Positions 1 through 53,147 of a stretch of DNA of 64,000 nt are shown here, piece by piece (position 1 is the first letter of the stretch; every line of letters starts with the position of its first letter). Below the pieces are notes generated by a model. It was not told the DNA's origin. It worked only from the letters and a program-made list of their open reading frames with translations, and made no database searches. The position numbers and the translations under genes are program-made. The stretch is from the NCBI GenBank assembly GCA_001513155.1, contig LFSR01000016.1, forward strand, positions 1-64,000, written 5' to 3'. Origin of the DNA: Syntrophomonas sp. DTU018 (GTDB taxonomy: Bacteria > Bacillota > Syntrophomonadia > Syntrophomonadales > Syntrophomonadaceae).

Positions 1-2788
1 GTTTCAATCCCCTTAAATCGGGTCAATAACCTGCTTCTGCGCGAGGAGTTCAGTGTTTTTCGGATGTTTCAATCCCCTTAAATCGGGTCAATAACGAACA
101 CCGTATATACTTTTCCTGGAAGTTCAGCAAAGTTTCAATCCCCTTAAATCGGGTCAATAACCTTTCTATTCAGTTTATACAATATCACAGACTGATTCGT
201 TTCAATCCCCTTAAATCGGGTCAATAACGAGTCTGTGTTATCATGGGGTCCTGTTGTTCCTGGGTTTCAATCCCCTTAAATCGGGTCAATAACTTGTGGG
301 ACTTGAAAGAAAGAGAGAAGATTAAATTGTTTCAATCCCCTTAAATCGGGTCAATAACCCAGAACCCGGTTTTGCGAGGTAGGAGCTTGGGCAGGTTTCA
401 ATCCCCTTAAATCGGGTCAATAACTATTGGAACTTCGAGTCGTTCTCCAAGCAAGGAACGTTTCAATCCCCTTAAATCGGGTCAATAACTATGTATGAGA
501 CAGCTGAAAGCTGTGAGTTTATCGGGTTTCAATCCCCTTAAATCGGGTCAATAACCCGGTCCAGGACCTTGCGGCTGGAGGATAATTATACGTTTCAATC
601 CCCTTAAATCGGGTCAATAACTAGTACCAGCGACCAATTCAAACGCGCTTAAATCGCGTTTCAATCCCCTTAAATCGGGTCAATAACTATGCCATGCACC
701 ACGTAACTGAGGCTCTGGAACTGGTTTCAATCCCCTTAAATCGGGTCAATAACTACCTGCTGTTGGTACTGTGGCGGTAGACCCTGAAGTTTCAATCCCC
801 TTAAATCGGGTCAATAACTTGAGACTCCATAATGTTGACACGATAATAGGAAGGGTTTCAATCCCCTTAAATCGGGTCAATAACTCACCAACATTTATCC
901 TTATTTGCCTATCCCATTGATGTTTCAATCCCCTTAAATCGGGTCAATAACAGGAAATTTTTCTGTGAGCTCATATAAACCACGCCTGTTTCAATCCCCT
1001 TAAATCGGGTCAATAACTTTTACTATGAGTGGCAACCCTGCCATACTCTCGAGTTTCAATCCCCTTAAATCGGGTCAATAACCTCAAGCCTTTGCGTCTT
1101 TGTAAATCCATGACCCCGTTTCAATCCCCTTAAATCGGGTCAATAACCAAGCAGACGAAAGCACAAAAGAAAAAGCCCTCCAGGTTTCAATCCCCTTAAA
1201 TCGGGTCAATAACAAAGAAGGGCAATCAAGTTCAACGGCTTGGTTGCCGGTTTCAATCCCCTTAAATCGGGTCAATAACCAAATGAGCCGGTCCGGCTCC
1301 CCGGCTCATTTGGGGTTTCAATCCCCTTAAATCGGGTCAATAACTAAATGTTCATTCTCGTATTGCTTTGACACTGTCATGGTTTCAATCCCCTTAAATC
1401 GGGTCAATAACGAATATCCTTTATGCCCAGAGCGTACAGGAGCAATTGTTTCAATCCCCTTAAATCGGGTCAATAACGAAGTATCATCATACCGCGCCCC
1501 GAATTCGTTAGGAGTTTCAATCCCCTTAAATCGGGTCAATAACCCAAATCTGGGAAATATCGGGAGTTTATGGAGGCTGGTTTCAATCCCCTTAAATCGG
1601 GTCAATAACCGACGCAGACAAAGAAAAAGCCCTCCGGCAGGCAAGTTTCAATCCCCTTAAATCGGGTCAATAACTGGGTGTCTGACAGGCTTAAGGAAGA
1701 AAAGGAGAAGGTTTCAATCCCCTTAAATCGGGTCAATAACGCATAGTTAGCGGGTGTTATCTATGTGGGTAAAGAAGTTTCAATCCCCTTAAATCGGGTC
1801 AATAACGCGGTTGCCGGGTACCGATTCAAGCGGGGCGAAGTGTTTCAATCCCCTTAAATCGGGTCAATAACAAAGGACGCAGTCTATTGAATCTGCCCGG
1901 GAGCAATGTTTCAATCCCCTTAAATCGGGTCAATAACAATCCCGCCGGCCATTAAAGGTGAAAAGGAGGAAGAGTTTCAATCCCCTTAAATCGGGTCAAT
2001 AACTTGGTCTCTACTATCTGCATTTGCAACGCCTCCCTTGTTTCAATCCCCTTAAATCGGGTCAATAACAGAGCACAAGGAGTCGCTGGCGGGAATATGG
2101 GTAGGGTTTCAATCCCCTTAAATCGGGTCAATAACCCGGCAACAGTGAGGAACTAAAGGCACGGATTGAGGTTTCAATCCCCTTAAATCGGGTCAATAAC
2201 TTAACAACAAAATACCCGTCTCCAATTTCATCTACAGTTTCAATCCCCTTAAATCGGGTCAATAACAATGAAGTGCTTGGCCAATTCCTTACCAACATCG
2301 GGTTTCAATCCCCTTAAATCGGGTCAATAACCAGAGATGGCGCGGAGGCGATTCTGACAGAAGCGAGTTTCAATCCCCTTAAATCGGGTCAATAACGAAA
2401 TACCGTGAATTAAACCATGAGAGACTGCTTTGTTTCAATCCCCTTAAATCGGGTCAATAACGGGTTGCCTGGTTCGAGTGAAGATCGAAATATTCGAGTT
2501 TCAATCCCCTTAAATCGGGTCAATAACTGGGTGGTGATGTGTAATGCAGGTGGCCATTATATGTTTCAATCCCCTTAAATCGGGTCAATAACTGAGAGGG
2601 GTTTAAGTCTGCGTGATTTTGAGCATTGTTTCAATCCCCTTAAATCGGGTCAATAACCAGTGCAAATCTCGGTGCGGGGCAAAAGCTACGCCAGTTTCAA
2701 TCCCCTTAAATCGGGTCAATAACTAAGTGGGATCGCGGACCTCTGGAAGAGGAAGCCCGTTTCAATCCCCTTAAATCGGGTCAATAAC
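1..2788 (-). CRISPR. CRISPR array, 43 identical 30-bp repeats, 42 complete spacers
   Basis: Repeats start at 1, 66, 132, 199, 264 and so on to 2759-2788, with a period of 64-67 bp and spacers of 34-37 bp. Every repeat I read is identical: it begins GTTTCAATCC and ends GGGTCAATAAC. The first repeat starts at base 1, so the array probably continues beyond the window. The reverse complement of the repeat ends in ATTGAAAC, the usual 8-nt 5' handle of type I-A/I-B/III crRNAs, so I infer transcription on the minus strand with the leader at 2789-3030. No cas gene is present in the window. Short open frames across the array, made of repeated LLTRFKGIET or VSIPLNRVNN units, are translated repeats and not genes. 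Confidence 0.99.
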
Positions 2789-3030
2789 CCGTGCTGATAA
2801 AAGAATATTGGGCATTCTTTTATCAGTAAAGGTTTGCATTCAATTATATTTATTTGGATAAAAACATCAATACATGGGGCTTGCCAACAGGTTTACCCTG
2901 TCGTCACAGACTGGGGTTTTTTACTTCACTTATGGTCGACGACATTTCTTCTCGCTAGAGACTTGCTAGCAGGCTATTGAGACAAAATAGTGCGATCACA
3001 ATTTCTACTTTGATGTTCTTTGTTACTGCT
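2789..3030 (-). promoter_or_regulatory. Probable CRISPR leader
   Basis: This AT-rich non-coding stretch lies between the last repeat and the 3' end of the metallo-hydrolase gene. With the array read on the minus strand it is upstream of the newest spacers, where a leader belongs. It opens with a perfect 13-bp inverted repeat (2794-2806 and 2814-2826, 7-nt loop) only 5 nt from the first repeat. I did not identify a convincing promoter. Confidence 0.6.
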
Positions 3031-3032
3031 GG

Positions 3033-3944
3033 TTATCCCAAAGTCTGCAACACACTGCGCTGGCCGGGAGCCAGGTAATAGTGTTCTCCTTCCTGGATTA
3101 CCTTTCCCAGCCGCTCCAGGCGCTGCAGGTGTTTCCAGTCCATCATGCACTCGTGGATGTAATAGACCGCCTGGGGCTGGGGGAGGCGCCCGTCATAGCA
3201 CACTGCTTCCTTGGCCAGATCGCGAATGGTACGCTTGCCTGTATTAAGCAGGGCCAGGATCTTTTCCTCCTGCTCAAACAGTATGTCTCGATAAGCCGCC
3301 AGGCGTTTGGAAATATTACCTTTGACAAGGGCTGGACCATGCCCGGTGATGAGGAACTCAGGGTTGAGATTGCGCAGCCTTTCAATACTGTTTATGAAAT
3401 CGTCCACATCGCTGTCCAGCATGGCAAAGAAGGGTTTGGCATCCGGGTTTATATCAGCGGTAAAGACAAATCCCTGTTCGGGGAACAGGAACCCGCAGTG
3501 ACCAGCACTATGACCTGGTAAACCGAGCACCTTAAAGGAGACCCGGCCGGTGGAAATGGTTTGTCCATCCTGGATTTCACCATTTGCCTGACGGGGAGCA
3601 TACTTAACTGCGGCCAGATAATGGGGACGTACGCTGTCATCAGGAAAGAGATCAAAACCGTAATCGCGCAAATAAATCTCACCGTTGACGACCCGTTCAT
3701 GCTCAGCAGGGTGCATAAGTACTTGGGCTTCCGGGCAAGCAAAATTGCGGGAACAATGGTCGCTGTGTCCGTGGCTGTTTACTATTAAGTCTATGCGATG
3801 GTCAGAAATCCACTGCCAATCTTCTTCCGGCGGGCTGGAGTCCACCAGGCAGTTGATATCATCCTCTATCCACAGGCAGTTGCAATATGGCAGAGTGAAT
3901 TTGCCATTGCTGAGCAATGATATGCGCGGAAATAACCTTTCCAT
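3033..3944 (-). CDS. Metallo-beta-lactamase-fold hydrolase
   Basis: A 303-aa soluble hydrolase of the metallo-beta-lactamase superfamily. The zinc motif HGHSDH is at about residues 58-63, followed by a GLPGHSAGHCG block that supplies further metal ligands. The C-terminal third is helical, as in family members with an added winged-helix-like tail. I chose the ATG at 3944 because GGGGGAAGG lies just upstream; an in-frame TTG at 3956 has no visible ribosome site. The gene stands alone, with its 3' end facing the CRISPR leader. The substrate cannot be told from sequence; thioester, lactone or phosphodiester hydrolysis are all possible in this fold. Two further members of the fold occur at 10131 and 27450. 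Confidence 0.88.
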   Translation of the reverse strand: MERLFPRISLLSNGKFTLPYCNCLWIEDDINCLVDSSPPEEDWQWISDHRIDLIVNSHGHSDHCSRNFACPEAQVLMHPAEHERVVNGEIYLRDYGFDLFPDDSVRPHYLAAVKYAPRQANGEIQDGQTISTGRVSFKVLGLPGHSAGHCGFLFPEQGFVFTADINPDAKPFFAMLDSDVDDFINSIERLRNLNPEFLITGHGPALVKGNISKRLAAYRDILFEQEEKILALLNTGKRTIRDLAKEAVCYDGRLPQPQAVYYIHECMMDWKHLQRLERLGKVIQEGEHYYLAPGQRSVLQTLG

Positions 3945-4145
3945 ACCTTCCCCCAAATGTGCTGTCTGACATCTGCACCCATTATAACCCAGCTTTGCAA
4001 GTTTTCGATTGAATAAGTATCACATAATTAAAAGTCTGGGGTTAACAATATAACGTCTTTAACAAGATTAAATCTCAGCAACGCATCCTTTTCCTGCTTA
4101 GCGGTCACATTAATTAAGAGATAATTTCAAATGGGAGGATGCTTT

Positions 4146-4898
4146 ATGCGCAACAAGTTCATACCTTTACTGCTAATTGGTGTTATGCTGCTGGCAGCAG
4201 GCTGCCAGACCAGCAGCAAGCCAATGGAACCGGCCAAGAAACCGGAACAAACCACTGATTCCACTAAGTATCCGGCTGAGGTGCGCAATTGGCTGAGCAA
4301 TATGAAATCCTATCTGGTAGCGGGAGTAGTTGAAGAAGACGGTAAGACCTATCTGCTGGTTAGCGGAGGGGAACAGCGCACCGGCGGTCATGAGGTGAAA
4401 ATTACCGGTGTAAGGGATGCCGGCAACCAGCTGACAGTTAATGTAAAGATGACCCAGCCAGATGGACCGGCAACTCAGGTGATCAGTTATCCTCATGCAG
4501 TTTACGTCCTGGACCGGGAGCTAGAGGATAACAAAAAAGTAGTGTTTATAAACTCTGCAAACAATGAAAGAATTCCTCAAGTAATAGGCGATCAGCCCAC
4601 CGATCTTTTCCTGGACGGCAGCAGCAACATCAAGATTGTAGAAATGGAAATGGATAAGAATGAGATTGACGTGGAAGGCATTGCCCGGGTTGATAATCCC
4701 ACCATTCATTACCGTTTTACCGATGGAGCAGGGCAAACTGTCTCTGAGGGCAAGGTGACTGCTGCAGCAACTGCTCCTGACTGGGGCTCTTTTGAGCTGG
4801 ACGATGTCAAACGGCCTCAGGGTGCCACCCATATAGAATTCTATTGGGTCGATACAAAAGACCAGTCCCAACGGGATAAAGTACGGATTGCCCTGTAA
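4146..4898 (+). CDS. Lipoprotein with PrcB-C-like and Gmad2-like domains
   Basis: A 250-aa exported lipoprotein. The N-terminus has a charged start, a hydrophobic stretch and the lipobox LAAGC, then a Ser/Lys/Pro-rich linker. The first half contains a TGGHEVKITGV segment typical of the PrcB C-terminal domain, a small beta domain of surface proteins. The last ~90 residues resemble the immunoglobulin-like Gmad2 domain seen in spore-germination-associated lipoproteins. Start choice: GGGAGGA precedes the ATG at 4146, while the ATG at 4131 lies inside that site. The gene is monocistronic. A role at the cell surface is inferred from the domains; the ligand is unknown. Confidence 0.8.
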   Translation: MRNKFIPLLLIGVMLLAAGCQTSSKPMEPAKKPEQTTDSTKYPAEVRNWLSNMKSYLVAGVVEEDGKTYLLVSGGEQRTGGHEVKITGVRDAGNQLTVNVKMTQPDGPATQVISYPHAVYVLDRELEDNKKVVFINSANNERIPQVIGDQPTDLFLDGSSNIKIVEMEMDKNEIDVEGIARVDNPTIHYRFTDGAGQTVSEGKVTAAATAPDWGSFELDDVKRPQGATHIEFYWVDTKDQSQRDKVRIAL

Positions 4899-27086: not shown

Positions 27087-27449
27087 ATTCCCCTTCCTCC
27101 TCAAACATCCTTGTAAACCTTTACGGCGGACAAGCAAAATTCTTACACACCGTGCGGGAAACATTAAAGTACTACAGTGCTTTGAAAGTGTTAACAAAGC
27201 TTACTATCATTTGGGGTTAGAGATTGCCACGGCACTTCGTGCCTCGCAATTGTCACCTGCTGCGCAGACCACGATGAATGAAAAGTCATCTTTAGTGTCA
27301 TTGCTGTGAAAATGGCTTTCATGTTAGTAAAAAGGCAACCATTGTGTCATCGCGAGCGCGTAGCGCGTGGCGATCTCATTGCATGCCATTTGGGGGACAG
27401 TCCCAAAGCCCTACAGTGCTTTTTCCGGTTTCAGGGCAAACTGCCGCCG
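27087..27449. repeat. Intergenic dispersed repeats (363 bp, no gene)
   Basis: From about 27220 to 27380 the gap holds arms of the dispersed palindromic family (GAGATTGCCACG..., TGTCATCGCGAGCGCG...GTGGCGATCTC) and the TTGCTGTGAAAATGGCTTTC unit. The rest is the upstream region of the DUF3160 gene. I see no gene. Confidence 0.7.
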
Positions 27450-28601: not shown

Positions 28602-29996
28602 ATGTCGGTACTTAGTCACACGCACTATACTATACAAATGATGCATCACAATGATGTGGTGGCGGATGCTATGGTACAAATGCCATTATATTTGGTTTTT
28701 ATACATTCATTCCCGGAAACCCTGATATTATTGTATTTAGGTTTATCTTTAATAGGAGCTAAAGTGTCCAACCGAGATATAATAACCATAGCTCTGTTCG
28801 GTGCTGTTGTCAGTTATTTTATCCGTATGCTGCCAATACCGCCCGGGTCCAATGCGTTTCTCCAGCTATTTTTACTGGCCCTTCTGCTTTTCTCAGTCTG
28901 CAAAATTCCCCTATGGCTTTCGCTGGTGAGTATCATACTGGGCTTTTTAGGCGTTGCTTTCGCCGAATTATTGTTCATTCCTCTAGTGTCAGACCTCAGC
29001 GGAGTCAGCATACAAGAGGCTTTGGCCGATCCCCTTTGGCGCTTGCTATTCCCCTTTCCCGAGTTTGTTTTTCTTGCCTTGCTGATAATCTACATCAGGC
29101 GTAAACATATTAAGCTTCTTAACATTTCCAATCCCCACCTGACAGACGTAACCAACAAAACTTACATCACATCATTGCCGATTTTAGGGTTGTCAGTAGG
29201 ATTAGTGGTTTTCGGCTTTCACTATCAGCTATCCCAAGAACAACAGCAAGTTTCTTTTGACACCATGTTGACGGCCCTGTTTCTGGTTATCGTTGTAGCA
29301 GTTTTATTATCAATAGCTTTGAGCTGGGAAACTTTTTCCCTGGCCAGGCAGGAAAAGTATGTGAAACTCCAGCAGTTTCATATAGATAACCTGCAGGAAA
29401 TGATGAAAGTCATAAAAGCCCAGCGCCATGATTTTGTCAACCACCTGCAGGTGATTTACGGGATGGTGGCTTTAGGCCAGGTGGACCAGGGCAAGAATTA
29501 CATAAACACCCTCTATAAAGACATACAGGTGACCAACAATCTGCTACGCATGGCATATCCTGAACTCAGTGCCCTTTTGATTGTAAAGTCAGGTGTGGCT
29601 ACCGCACGAAATATCTCATTGGAAATAAAGCAGAACTCCGATCTATCGTATCTTAAAGTACCGCCTATGGAATTGGTAACCGTAGTAGGAAACCTGCTTA
29701 ACAATGCCCTGGAAGCTGTGGAAGACTGTGAACCTTTCCGGCGAACTGTCAAAATAAAGTTCTTTGAAAAATCAGGACTGTATGTGATCCAGACTCAAAA
29801 TCCCGGTTATATCCCTCCTGATTTAAAAAACAAGATATTTGAGCCTGGTTTTTCCACCAAAGCAGGTGATCGGGGTATCGGACTTGCTTCAATAAAATAC
29901 CAGGTTGAAAGGCGCAACGGCATGGTCCTGGTAAGCAGTCACCCGAAATACGGCACCCGCTTTACAGTATGCTATCCAAGGAGGAAAGGAGCATGA
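28602..29996 (+). CDS. AgrC-like sensor histidine kinase
   Basis: A 464-aa membrane sensor. The N-terminal ~240 residues hold about six to seven hydrophobic helices, as in AgrC/BlpH receptors. The dimerisation helix carries QRHDFVNHLQVIYG with phospho-acceptor H276 of the SpoOB/AgrC type. The HATPase_c domain shows NLLNNALEAVE (N box), RGIGLASIKYQVERRNG (G box) and a C-terminal GTRFTVCYP. AAGGAAAAT precedes the ATG. The stop overlaps the agrB start by four bases (ATGA). It should sense the cyclic peptide encoded by the agrD-like gene at 31511 and phosphorylate the LytTR regulator at 30628. Confidence 0.88.
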   Translation: MSVLSHTHYTIQMMHHNDVVADAMVQMPLYLVFIHSFPETLILLYLGLSLIGAKVSNRDIITIALFGAVVSYFIRMLPIPPGSNAFLQLFLLALLLFSVCKIPLWLSLVSIILGFLGVAFAELLFIPLVSDLSGVSIQEALADPLWRLLFPFPEFVFLALLIIYIRRKHIKLLNISNPHLTDVTNKTYITSLPILGLSVGLVVFGFHYQLSQEQQQVSFDTMLTALFLVIVVAVLLSIALSWETFSLARQEKYVKLQQFHIDNLQEMMKVIKAQRHDFVNHLQVIYGMVALGQVDQGKNYINTLYKDIQVTNNLLRMAYPELSALLIVKSGVATARNISLEIKQNSDLSYLKVPPMELVTVVGNLLNNALEAVEDCEPFRRTVKIKFFEKSGLYVIQTQNPGYIPPDLKNKIFEPGFSTKAGDRGIGLASIKYQVERRNGMVLVSSHPKYGTRFTVCYPRRKGA

Positions 29997-30622
29997 GTAT
30001 TCACGAACTGTCGGTAAGATTTGCAGCCTACCTGGCCCGGGAACTTAACAGTGACAAGCGTCAGGAGCTGCGCATGGCCTATGGTCTGGAGGTTCTTTTA
30101 GGTGAAATTATAAAGTTTATCGTGATTATTTCCCTCTCATGGCTGCTGGGTATTTTAACTGAAGTCCTGATTATTATGTTTACTGCCGGTATCTTACGCC
30201 TGGCATCCGGCGGAGAGCACTGCAGCGCATATTATCGCTGCCTTATCGGCGGGACTGTCTGGTTTCTGGTACTGGGGTGGGCAGTACAGGTCCTCAACAC
30301 TATTCTGTCACAGTTTATAATTAATTGGGATGCAGCTATACTGTTCGCCGTATCCTTGGTAATAATCCTGAAATATGCTCCCGGTGAAACCGAGAATAAG
30401 CCTATCAGCAGTGAAGAAGAACGAAAGAAATTTAAGAACTGGTCAATATTCATTATGTTTGCCTATGGGATTATCCTGGTGATATCTGCCATTATACCTG
30501 GCTTAAACTTCTTGGTTTTGCCTATGGCAATAGGTATCATAGCCCAAGCTTTTACGGTATCACCTGCTGGCTACGATTTTATTCACTTTGTTGACAGGAT
30601 TTTGACTTTTTCGAAAGGGTAA
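29993..30622 (+). CDS. agrB: AgrB-type autoinducer-processing peptidase
   Basis: A 209-aa membrane cysteine endopeptidase that trims the C-terminus of AgrD and forms the thiolactone. The catalytic pair sits in SGGEHCSAYYRC, H76 and C83, with the spacing seen in AgrB. The usual NKPISSEEERKKFK segment appears mid-protein, and four to six membrane helices surround it. I chose the ATG at 29993 because AAGGAGGAAAGG is directly upstream; the longer frame to 29969 runs through it. It is translationally coupled to the kinase, and the LytTR gene follows after 5 bp. Confidence 0.93.
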   Translation: MSIHELSVRFAAYLARELNSDKRQELRMAYGLEVLLGEIIKFIVIISLSWLLGILTEVLIIMFTAGILRLASGGEHCSAYYRCLIGGTVWFLVLGWAVQVLNTILSQFIINWDAAILFAVSLVIILKYAPGETENKPISSEEERKKFKNWSIFIMFAYGIILVISAIIPGLNFLVLPMAIGIIAQAFTVSPAGYDFIHFVDRILTFSKG

Positions 30623-30627
30623 GGGGT

Positions 30628-31317
30628 ATGAGAATCCTTATAGTGGATGATGAGCTTGCAGCAGGTACATATCTTCAGTCCATAATTGAACAAGTACCTG
30701 GGGTTTCTACGGATATTGCCACCAGCGGCGAGGAAGCCCTGAAGAAAGCCTCAGTAAACCAGCCCCAGGCAGTATTTCTGGACATTGATATGCCGGATAT
30801 AAACGGTTTAGAATTAGCCCGCACATTAGCGAAAGAAAATGAAGACCTATCCTTTGTTTTCGCTACGGCTTATCCTGATTATGCTTTGGAAGCTTTCGAG
30901 CTGTATTCCGTCGATTATATTCTCAAGCCTTTCGATAAAGAGAGAATTAAGAAAACCGTAAAAAAGCTGCTGGACAAATCACGATACTCAGATGAGGTTC
31001 CTGTTTTGATAAAGACAGTGAAACAAAATGTATTCTTAAAGCCCAGCAATATTTTATATATTGAAGCTCAACCCAGCGGGAATATTATACAGACACTTAA
31101 CGGGATTCATATTACCAAAGAAAATATCAATGATCTTCACAGCAAGCTGCCTCAGTATTACTTCTTCCGCTGCCATAGAAGCTATGTGGTAAATCTGAAA
31201 CGCATTAAAGAAATTGTTCCTTCCGGCCGCACTTTCCAGATTGTGTTGGAAACAAGCGAAAAAATTCCCCTCAGCCGCAATCAGGAAAAAACTTTCCGCA
31301 TGAAACTGCAAAAGTAA
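30628..31317 (+). CDS. AgrA-like LytTR response regulator
   Basis: A 229-aa regulator. The receiver domain (1-118) has DDE at residues 7-9, phospho-acceptor D52 in FLDIDMPD, the Thr/Ala switch in FATAYPDYA and Lys in ILKPFDK. The LytTR DNA-binding domain (~128-229) ends FFRCHRSYVVNLKRIKEIVPSGRTF and IPLSRNQEKTF. LytTR proteins bind pairs of 9-bp direct repeats one or two turns apart; a matching pair lies at 31433-31462. GGTAAGGGGT precedes the ATG. A terminator follows at 31347. Confidence 0.93.
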   Translation: MRILIVDDELAAGTYLQSIIEQVPGVSTDIATSGEEALKKASVNQPQAVFLDIDMPDINGLELARTLAKENEDLSFVFATAYPDYALEAFELYSVDYILKPFDKERIKKTVKKLLDKSRYSDEVPVLIKTVKQNVFLKPSNILYIEAQPSGNIIQTLNGIHITKENINDLHSKLPQYYFFRCHRSYVVNLKRIKEIVPSGRTFQIVLETSEKIPLSRNQEKTFRMKLQK

Positions 31318-31346
31318 CCCTGACCTCCGATAATTTGACACTATTT

Positions 31347-31376
31347 ACCGGCTTTCGCCGGTATTTTTTAATTTTT
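31347..31376 (+). terminator. Terminator between the regulator gene and agrD
   Basis: The 7-bp stem TACCGGC / GCCGGTA with loop TTTC is followed by TTTTTTAATTTTT. It separates the kinase-agrB-regulator transcript from the agrD-like gene. Confidence 0.88.
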
Positions 31377-31432
31377 GAAATGTTTTGATATCGAATATAA
31401 CCCATTCAAGTCTGATTGTGACCCTTTCAGCT

Positions 31433-31462
31433 CAAAACTATTGTGTCTTATACCCCAACTAT
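31433..31462 (-). promoter_or_regulatory. Pair of LytTR/AgrA-type binding sites
   Basis: On the minus strand the two 9-mers read ATAGTTGGG (31462-31454) and ATAGTTTTG (31441-31433), with exactly 12 bp between them. AgrA boxes of staphylococci are ACAGTTAAG/ACAGTTAGG-like 9-mers with a 12-bp spacer, so sequence and 21-bp period both agree. The sites overlap a possible promoter (TTGTGT at 31441, TATAAA at 31463) just upstream of agrD. This is inferred by comparison with the known consensus. Confidence 0.6.
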
Positions 31463-31510
31463 TATAAATATCGGTAGGTGGTCACCATCAATTGGAAGGA
31501 GGTGGAAACG

Positions 31511-31624
31511 ATGTTCAAATTTAGATTATTAAGCACGTTATCTGCCTTTTTGCTGTTAGTAGCCAGTGCTGGAGTACAGCCTGCATGTTTGTTCCATTGG
31601 TATCAGCCCAAGCTGCCGGAGTAA
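31511..31624 (+). CDS. agrD: AgrD-like cyclic autoinducing-peptide precursor
   Basis: A 37-aa peptide with the three-part AgrD layout: an amphipathic hydrophobic leader (MFKFRLLSTLSAFLLLVASAG), a core with a single Cys (C26-L-F-H-W, giving a likely five-residue thiolactone ring CLFHW), and the tail YQPKLPE, which matches the YQPKxPE ending of clostridial AgrD peptides. GGAAGGAGGTGG precedes the ATG. It has its own leader with LytTR-type sites and a terminator at 31700-31749. Placing agrD last, away from agrB, is unusual. Ring boundaries are inferred from AIP chemistry. Confidence 0.9.
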   Translation: MFKFRLLSTLSAFLLLVASAGVQPACLFHWYQPKLPE

Positions 31625-31699: not shown

Positions 31700-31749
31700 G
31701 GTAAGACAGCAAATAGCCTCAGGGACTTGGCCCCTGAGGCTCTCTTACC
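31700..31749 (+). terminator. Long hairpin after agrD
   Basis: A 10-bp inner stem (31715-31724 with 31732-31741) is extended by outer arms GGTAAGA / TCTTACC (31700-31706 and 31743-31749). No long T-run follows, so it may be a terminator or an RNA-stability element. Confidence 0.65.
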
Positions 31750-31789
31750 GAAAACAACATATGTCGCCTCATGCTTCATAAGTTCTTGG

Positions 31790-32074
31790 CTTCATAGTGT
31801 CGTGTCATCGCAAGCGCGCAGCGCATGGCGGTCTGCTTTGCCCCCACCCACGCTACCGTGGCCTTTCAGATTGCCATGTTCCCTGGCGGGGCCTAGCGAT
31901 GACACGGCAAATGTTTTTTCCCCCAGCAATTTTCACCAGTACAATAGATCACGATAAAGGAAAACCTTGCTGCATGTTTTAAATATGAGTATCAGCCGGG
32001 ATGCAGGAGTATCAGCCGGGCGAGGAGTCCCGGAGCGAGCCGGCTAATACTTCTGCATTCAAATGAGGCAGTCT
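31790..32074. repeat. Dispersed repeats downstream of agrD (no gene)
   Basis: About 31798-31900 carries a diverged GTGTCATCGCAAGCGCG... palindromic unit. About 31993-32052 carries the second repeat family (core GAGTCCCGGAGCGAGCCGGCTAATAC). No gene is visible. Confidence 0.7.
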
Positions 32075-52520: not shown

Positions 52521-53147
52521 TGCATCACCTTAAAGCATGTTTTCTTGGCTGTCTTCCTCACCAGGCCAGCTGTTTCCCAACCTGATTTGAAATTGCATAT
52601 TGTACAAATCTGGAATATTCCTCAACAAAAATTTACTATTATCCAGCCGTTTGGTCAATTAATTTCCGAAAGAGTAGTTCCTATGGAATTAATGACGACA
52701 TATGTAGTTCCAGACTGTCAAAGAAGTCTTTTAGCGGTTAGACGTTTGAGATTGCCACGCCCCTCCGGGGCTCGCAATTGTCACCTGAAGCACAGGCCAC
52801 AATAAACGAAAACTTAAGCCTGTCATCGCGAGGAGCGAAGCGACGTGGCGATCTGTTAACTCACACCGTTAGTTGCCATAGAGATTGCCACGCGCTACGC
52901 GCTCGCAATGACACAATTGGGAGCTATTATCCCAGCCATGACATACTAGGGAAGCCGTTTTCATAGCAATGACACAATTGGGAGCTATTTTCACAGCAAT
53001 GACACATAAGACGGCCTTTTGGTATGTCATCGCGAGGAGCGTAGCGACGTGGCGATCTCTTTTAGCTAATTTTTTGACACTCTCTGACGACATATGTCAT
53101 TCTTATTTTTGCTACAATAGATAAAAAAATCGAAAAGGAGGCCAATC
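52521..53147. repeat. Intergenic region with nested repeat element (no gene)
   Basis: It holds MITE-like copy C (52712-53083) between direct repeats TGACGACATATGT. The outer parts, 52521-52690 and 53098-53147, hold only the promoter region of the nitroreductase gene: TACAAT near 53112 and AAGGAGG before the ATG at 53148. Confidence 0.7.
52712..53083 (+). mobile_element. MITE-like element, copy C, split by nested repeats
   Basis: The first ~70 bp and last ~85 bp are essentially identical to copy A (ends AGACTGTCAAAG and TTTTTTGACACTCT). Between them, after CTCGCAAT, about 220 bp of other repeats are inserted: a full palindromic unit in inverted order and two TTTTCAYAGCAATGACAC units. Direct repeats TGACGACATATGT flank it at 52693-52705 and 53085-53097. 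Confidence 0.78.

Follow-up and report, generated by a model that had tools for sequence, protein, structure and literature searches.

A complete agr-type locus in Syntrophomonas in which agrD is probably a separate, regulator-driven transcription unit

Departures from the usual agr gene order have already been published for clostridia. The order in Clostridioides difficile agr2 is agrACDB, while agrBD and agrCA of Clostridium acetobutylicum are predicted to be two transcription units (PMC3754575); C. autoethanogenum has the orders agrD1-C1-B1 and D2-C2 (PMC8748961). An agrD away from the operon has also been described (PMC5322536). Since published variants differ in this respect, adjacency of agrB and agrD is a trait of layout and is not required. 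In C. thermocellum, LC-MS/MS confirmed that AgrD gives rise to a cyclic pentapeptide, with cuts before Ser and ahead of Tyr (PMC5322536). Published autoregulation sites of LytTR regulators consist of 9-mers separated by 12 bp, some 10 bp 5' of the -35 element, and the LRS of Streptococcus mutans combines positive autoregulation with secreted (bacteriocin) outputs (PMC6193735). In the open-access literature, no account was found of an agrD that stands by itself with a regulator site of its own, nor of such a unit seeding a regulon of secreted proteins, and no mention was found of Syntrophomonas and agrD together.

The locus described here occurs in a 64,000-nt stretch of DNA from Syntrophomonas sp. 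DTU018 (contig LFSR01000016.1; hereafter, the window), and all the proteins that define an agr system were identified in it (Table 1). A preliminary description of this DNA had claimed a complete agr-type set in the order kinase-agrB-regulator-agrD, and all four families were indeed matched at those positions. Analysis by hmmscan identified SPOB_a (64.9 bits) and HATPase_c_5 (46.8 bits) in the kinase, which also resembled the AgrC_Staph model (E = 2.3e-19, under that model's cutoff); it was an AgrC-like membrane kinase with a GHKL ATPase domain and, from its sequence, a hydrophobic N-terminal half. Its start had been placed at 28602, but is probably at 28671, giving 441 aa, because the alignment of relatives begins at MxxMPxYLV. 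AgrB matched PF04647 (142.5 bits, E = 1.3e-41), and its catalytic His and Cys, correctly noted beforehand as the pair H76/C83, were aligned and kept in 48 of 48 AgrB compared. The regulator contained PF00072 (Response_reg, 80.2 bits) and PF04397 (LytTR, 85.1 bits).

Table 1. Features of the agr locus in the window, with members of a 160-aa family found in relatives
Feature	Position	Strand	Basis or remarks
agrC-type sensor histidine kinase	28671..29996	+	SPOB_a, HATPase_c_5; ORF open from ATG 28602
agrB, peptide-processing membrane protease	29993..30622	+	PF04647; H76/C83
agrA-type response regulator	30628..31317	+	REC + LytTR
Intrinsic terminator between agrA and agrD	31346..31369	+	7-bp GC-rich stem, then T run
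LytTR-type operator (candidate): ACCCATTCA 31400-31408, ACCCTTTCA 31421-31429	31400..31429	+	Direct repeats, 12-bp spacer
Probable agrD promoter: TTGTGT - 16 bp - TATAAA	31441..31468	+	Inferred from sequence; 11 bp 3' of operator
Shine-Dalgarno of agrD, AAGGAGGTG	31497..31505	+	Sequence; strong, conserved in relatives
agrD, 37 aa, predicted ring CLFHW, tail YQPKLPE	31511..31624	+	TIGR04223
Strong hairpin 3' of agrD, may end the agrD transcript	31700..31749	+	-26.7 kcal/mol, z -5.2
160-aa family members	L032:6779-7264, L045:7123-7593, L062:3083-3562		

The NCBIfam model TIGR04223, which has a cutoff of 19 bits, identified the 37-aa ORF as AgrD (38.4 bits, E = 9.6e-10), and these values exclude a chance match. 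It had been thought too short for routine gene calls; the gene is short, but the curated model catches it. The model and the AgrD alignment identified an amphipathic leader, a Cys ring and a P-x-x-P tail, and the ring-tail motif was conserved. The ring CLFHW, as originally predicted, fits the C. thermocellum pentapeptide; by analogy with that AgrD (PMC5322536), the product is probably a cyclo(CLFHW) thiolactone, its five-residue ring being predicted. A quite different reading, that the 37-aa product is a leader or a secreted effector peptide rather than a signal, and that C-B-A act on something else, would suit those relatives where agrD lies ahead of genes for secreted proteins and has in some cases decayed. 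It was considered very improbable, given conservation of the ring-tail motif and the fact that the genome (2.56 Mb, 59 contigs) contained a single agrB and a single intact agrD, each the only partner available to the other. Just 3' of agrD, the window also contained a short dispersed repeat (31780-31920; GTCGTGTCATCGCAAGCGCGCAGC and following), of which partial copies were present at 27344-27376 and 52887-52914.

About 60 agrD loci in 61 genomes were sorted by the surrounding gene order. The common layouts were C-B-D-A and C-B-D, with agrD within the operon. The agrD of the window belonged to another class, type II, with the tail WYQPKLPE and the layout C-B-A, a gap and then D (C-B-A//D). This layout was observed at L045, L049, L056, L057 and L067, and partially at L037; L068 had the variant C-A-D-B, and in L032 and L053 D was inverted and faced C-B-A. 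Type-II AgrB formed one clade (support 99/99) requiring one change on the tree, and ordinary C-B-D-A loci coexisted in Syntrophomonadaceae. Judged from this phylogeny, the C-B-A//D order is an inherited trait of one AgrB lineage, rather than a one-off. Hence, while the order had rightly been called unusual with respect to S. aureus, it is shared by one AgrB clade and other non-BDCA orders are published.

Type-II agrD was present in 17 of 54 Syntrophomonadaceae species (54 genomes), representing 8 of 23 genera. Named relatives comprised Syntrophomonas zehnderi OL-4, Syntrophomonadaceae metagenome assemblies and a few short contigs under other names. S. zehnderi OL-4, an isolate, showed the same B-A//D arrangement on a contig that starts inside agrB, and a putative secreted-protein gene was located 135 nt 3' of its agrD. 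The search for homologues in the same order, suggested at the outset as a check, thereby located AgrD at the equivalent position in relatives, including one genome of the same genus (G002) that kept the layout of the window. A second genome of the genus (G001) had a decayed agrD by the same neighbouring genes and another type-II locus, inverted, elsewhere. Among C-B-D-A loci, the residue expected to close the ring, five positions ahead of Y-E-P, was Lys instead of Cys in the type-I AgrD of L039, L047, L059 and L066 (KWFLL, KWFIL, KLFLL and KVFIL); in other AgrD, this position was occupied by Ser in 14 cases and Thr in one. If a ring forms on Lys at all, it would be a lactam; all AgrB compared kept His and Cys.

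The classical agr layout, where agrB and agrD are adjacent in one operon, was not found in the window. The position of agrD after the regulator and behind a terminator, as first described, was confirmed by a hairpin and T run, the hairpin (31346-31363) having a folding energy of -12 kcal/mol (z = -4.7). Some relatives (e.g., L045, L062 and L100) had a hairpin and T run of different sequence in the same place, and a clear terminator was absent in part of the relatives. The preliminary description was also right that agrD has its own leader, but it overlooked a conserved pair of direct repeats there, which constitute a LytTR-type candidate operator. As far as sequence can tell, their geometry equals that of published LytTR sites (PMC6193735), i.e., 9-mer direct repeats 12 bp apart and, in the window, 11 bp upstream of the -35 element; they also resemble the S. 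aureus AgrA sites (PMC4227749). The -35 element of the window was weak, and TTGACT or TTGCAT occurred instead at the same promoter layout in relatives. Upstream of the window's agrC, no operator matching this one was found.

Alignment of upstream DNA showed that direct repeats in a 9-12-9 arrangement preceded nearly all type-II agrD, and that operator, -35/-10 elements and a strong Shine-Dalgarno sequence were conserved across diverged genomes. This bears on the view that the locus is an ordinary agr operon whose agrD, displaced by rearrangement, is transcribed by read-through from agrA, with little contribution from repeats and promoter. Such a view draws on the compactness of the locus, for neighbouring genes from agrC to agrA overlap or touch and the gap between agrA and agrD is only 193 bp, and on those relatives that have no clear terminator. 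It is nonetheless unlikely, in the face of the terminator in the window and the conservation of the upstream elements, and because the inverted agrD of L032 and L053 could not be read from agrA, yet operator and promoter were retained. The original suggestion that signal precursor can be made without the other genes is sound in that agrD has its own leader, but it is better put as agrD being separately switched, probably by AgrA.

When the 61 genomes were searched for the pattern ACCCATTCA-N12-ACCCTTTCA, with one mismatch tolerated, 11 matches were exact and every one of these was just upstream of a type-II agrD, where about 0.3 exact matches in the searched sequence were expected by chance (estimated from base composition); the motif was first derived from these very loci, making its presence there partly circular, although its specificity elsewhere is not. 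The operators of L173 (twice), L170 and L184, which were left out when the weight matrix was built, also fitted. Exceptions included L045, with a poor second half-site, L068, with an 11-bp spacer, and L096, with one clear half-site. The operator travels with the type-II agr clade, and none was found at the ordinary C-B-D-A loci. This association argues against the idea that agrD has its own promoter but that a different LytTR protein, or some other regulator, binds the repeats, in which case the unit would answer to a different input. The genome did encode two LytTR proteins, AgrA of the window and another on contig C41, which lends that idea some substance; overall, it was thought improbable.

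Within the window's genome, no further convincing operator was found apart from a copy on contig C23. A relaxed pattern produced 9 matches against 14 in the reversed control, and for this reason only the agrD site was kept. Pattern matches shared by G020, G023, G027 and G036 gave an impression of conservation, but were rejected as targets, being apparently within coding sequence of one protein family (by eye). The operator on contig C23 (L126 in G000) had one mismatch and was situated upstream of a frameshifted agrD, with no C-B-A. Positions 1-4645 of this contig comprised a second copy of the genes flanking the locus in the window (24.1-28.5 kb; 78-83% identical) and, after it, this operator and agrD; 1586 bp were 100% identical to a contig of the same genus (G001:C84). 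Given this identity, contig C23 may be misbinned, and it was not counted as a second agr system.

In relatives, the gene following agrD frequently appeared to encode a secreted protein. Taking as cargo the nearest gene 3' of agrD on the same strand, at most 350 nt away, a signal-peptide-like start was present in 11 of 12 (two of the 12 being near copies), compared with 23% of background ORFs, a simple hydropathy rule being applied to both. Cargo families included DUF4879 and a C39-like peptidase; most cargo had no family. The agrD of the window had no cargo, as the next genes are on the opposite strand, from 32075; a search of its genome for an output gene found none, nor were DUF4879, Peptidase_C39_2 or the 160-aa L062 protein found there. 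This 160-aa family (WxELxxxYDIRHxTFxELCEI), with no significant Pfam match, was observed 3' of agrD in three genera.

The weight matrix identified extra operators near the loci of relatives, with scores of 22-27 against a maximum of 15 in shuffled sequence (L032 at 4768, 7400 and 12274; L068 at 3193; L097 at 7412). Several were upstream of agrD remnants, and that at L032:4768 was followed by a secreted C39-like protein (assigned by eye from a CAPAS motif). L062 and L067 contained agrD copies with a 3' piece of agrA. Cassettes of operator, promoter and agrD were duplicated in relatives, some with decayed agrD. We infer that the cassette in relatives probably also acts as an output switch and would be co-transcribed with the cargo. 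More tentatively, and with the balance slightly against it, the quorum regulon may grow as the cassette is copied in front of genes for secreted proteins. Every copy would contribute a target as well as more signal, while decay of an old agrD would leave nothing but an output promoter; if true, signal dose and quorum output would be physically linked. At L173 (G068, contig C33), two agrD were observed about 350 bp apart, with rings CWFNW and CWFSW and an operator each, possibly providing two signals in one genome.

Taken from the sequence, the locus is quite probably a complete agr system with agrD as a separate, regulator-driven transcription unit, fed back via AgrA at 31400-31429. The sensor, protease and regulator (C-B-A) would be expressed from their own promoter. 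AgrB would cleave and cyclise AgrD to a pentapeptide, which AgrC would sense, phosphorylating AgrA; AgrA-P would then bind both direct repeats and activate the agrD promoter. The resulting positive feedback would increase the supply of signal, and not of receptor and protease, and in relatives AgrA-P would also activate secreted cargo. If true, this is an agr design with feedback on the signal alone, for which the predicted switching differs from the whole-operon feedback of S. aureus. The operator would be a bioinformatic marker for agr regulons in syntrophic fatty-acid oxidisers, and S. zehnderi OL-4 provides an isolate genome for work on the same arrangement.

Among known systems, S. aureus agr (agrBDCA) has the same four kinds of protein, and the tandem direct repeats to which its regulator binds lie immediately 5' of the signal gene's promoter (PMC4227749). 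However, all four genes are there expressed from P2, and an effector RNA from P3, whereas the candidate operator of the window occurs at agrD only, in a separate unit after agrA. C. difficile agr2 and C. acetobutylicum agrBD/agrCA are also clostridial systems of changed order, but their signal gene stays by agrB, while agrD of the window stands alone. C. thermocellum AgrD (Clo1313_2818; PMC5322536) and C. autoethanogenum agrD2C2 (PMC8748961) are comparable in that agrD lies apart from a full operon; those papers identified no complete cognate system for either, whereas here the cognate C-B-A is at a distance of 193 bp and the operator shows conservation. The LRS of S. mutans shares the 9-mer direct repeats, the 12-bp spacer and the position about 10 bp upstream of -35 (PMC6193735), but has a membrane inhibitor protein in place of peptide, kinase and protease.
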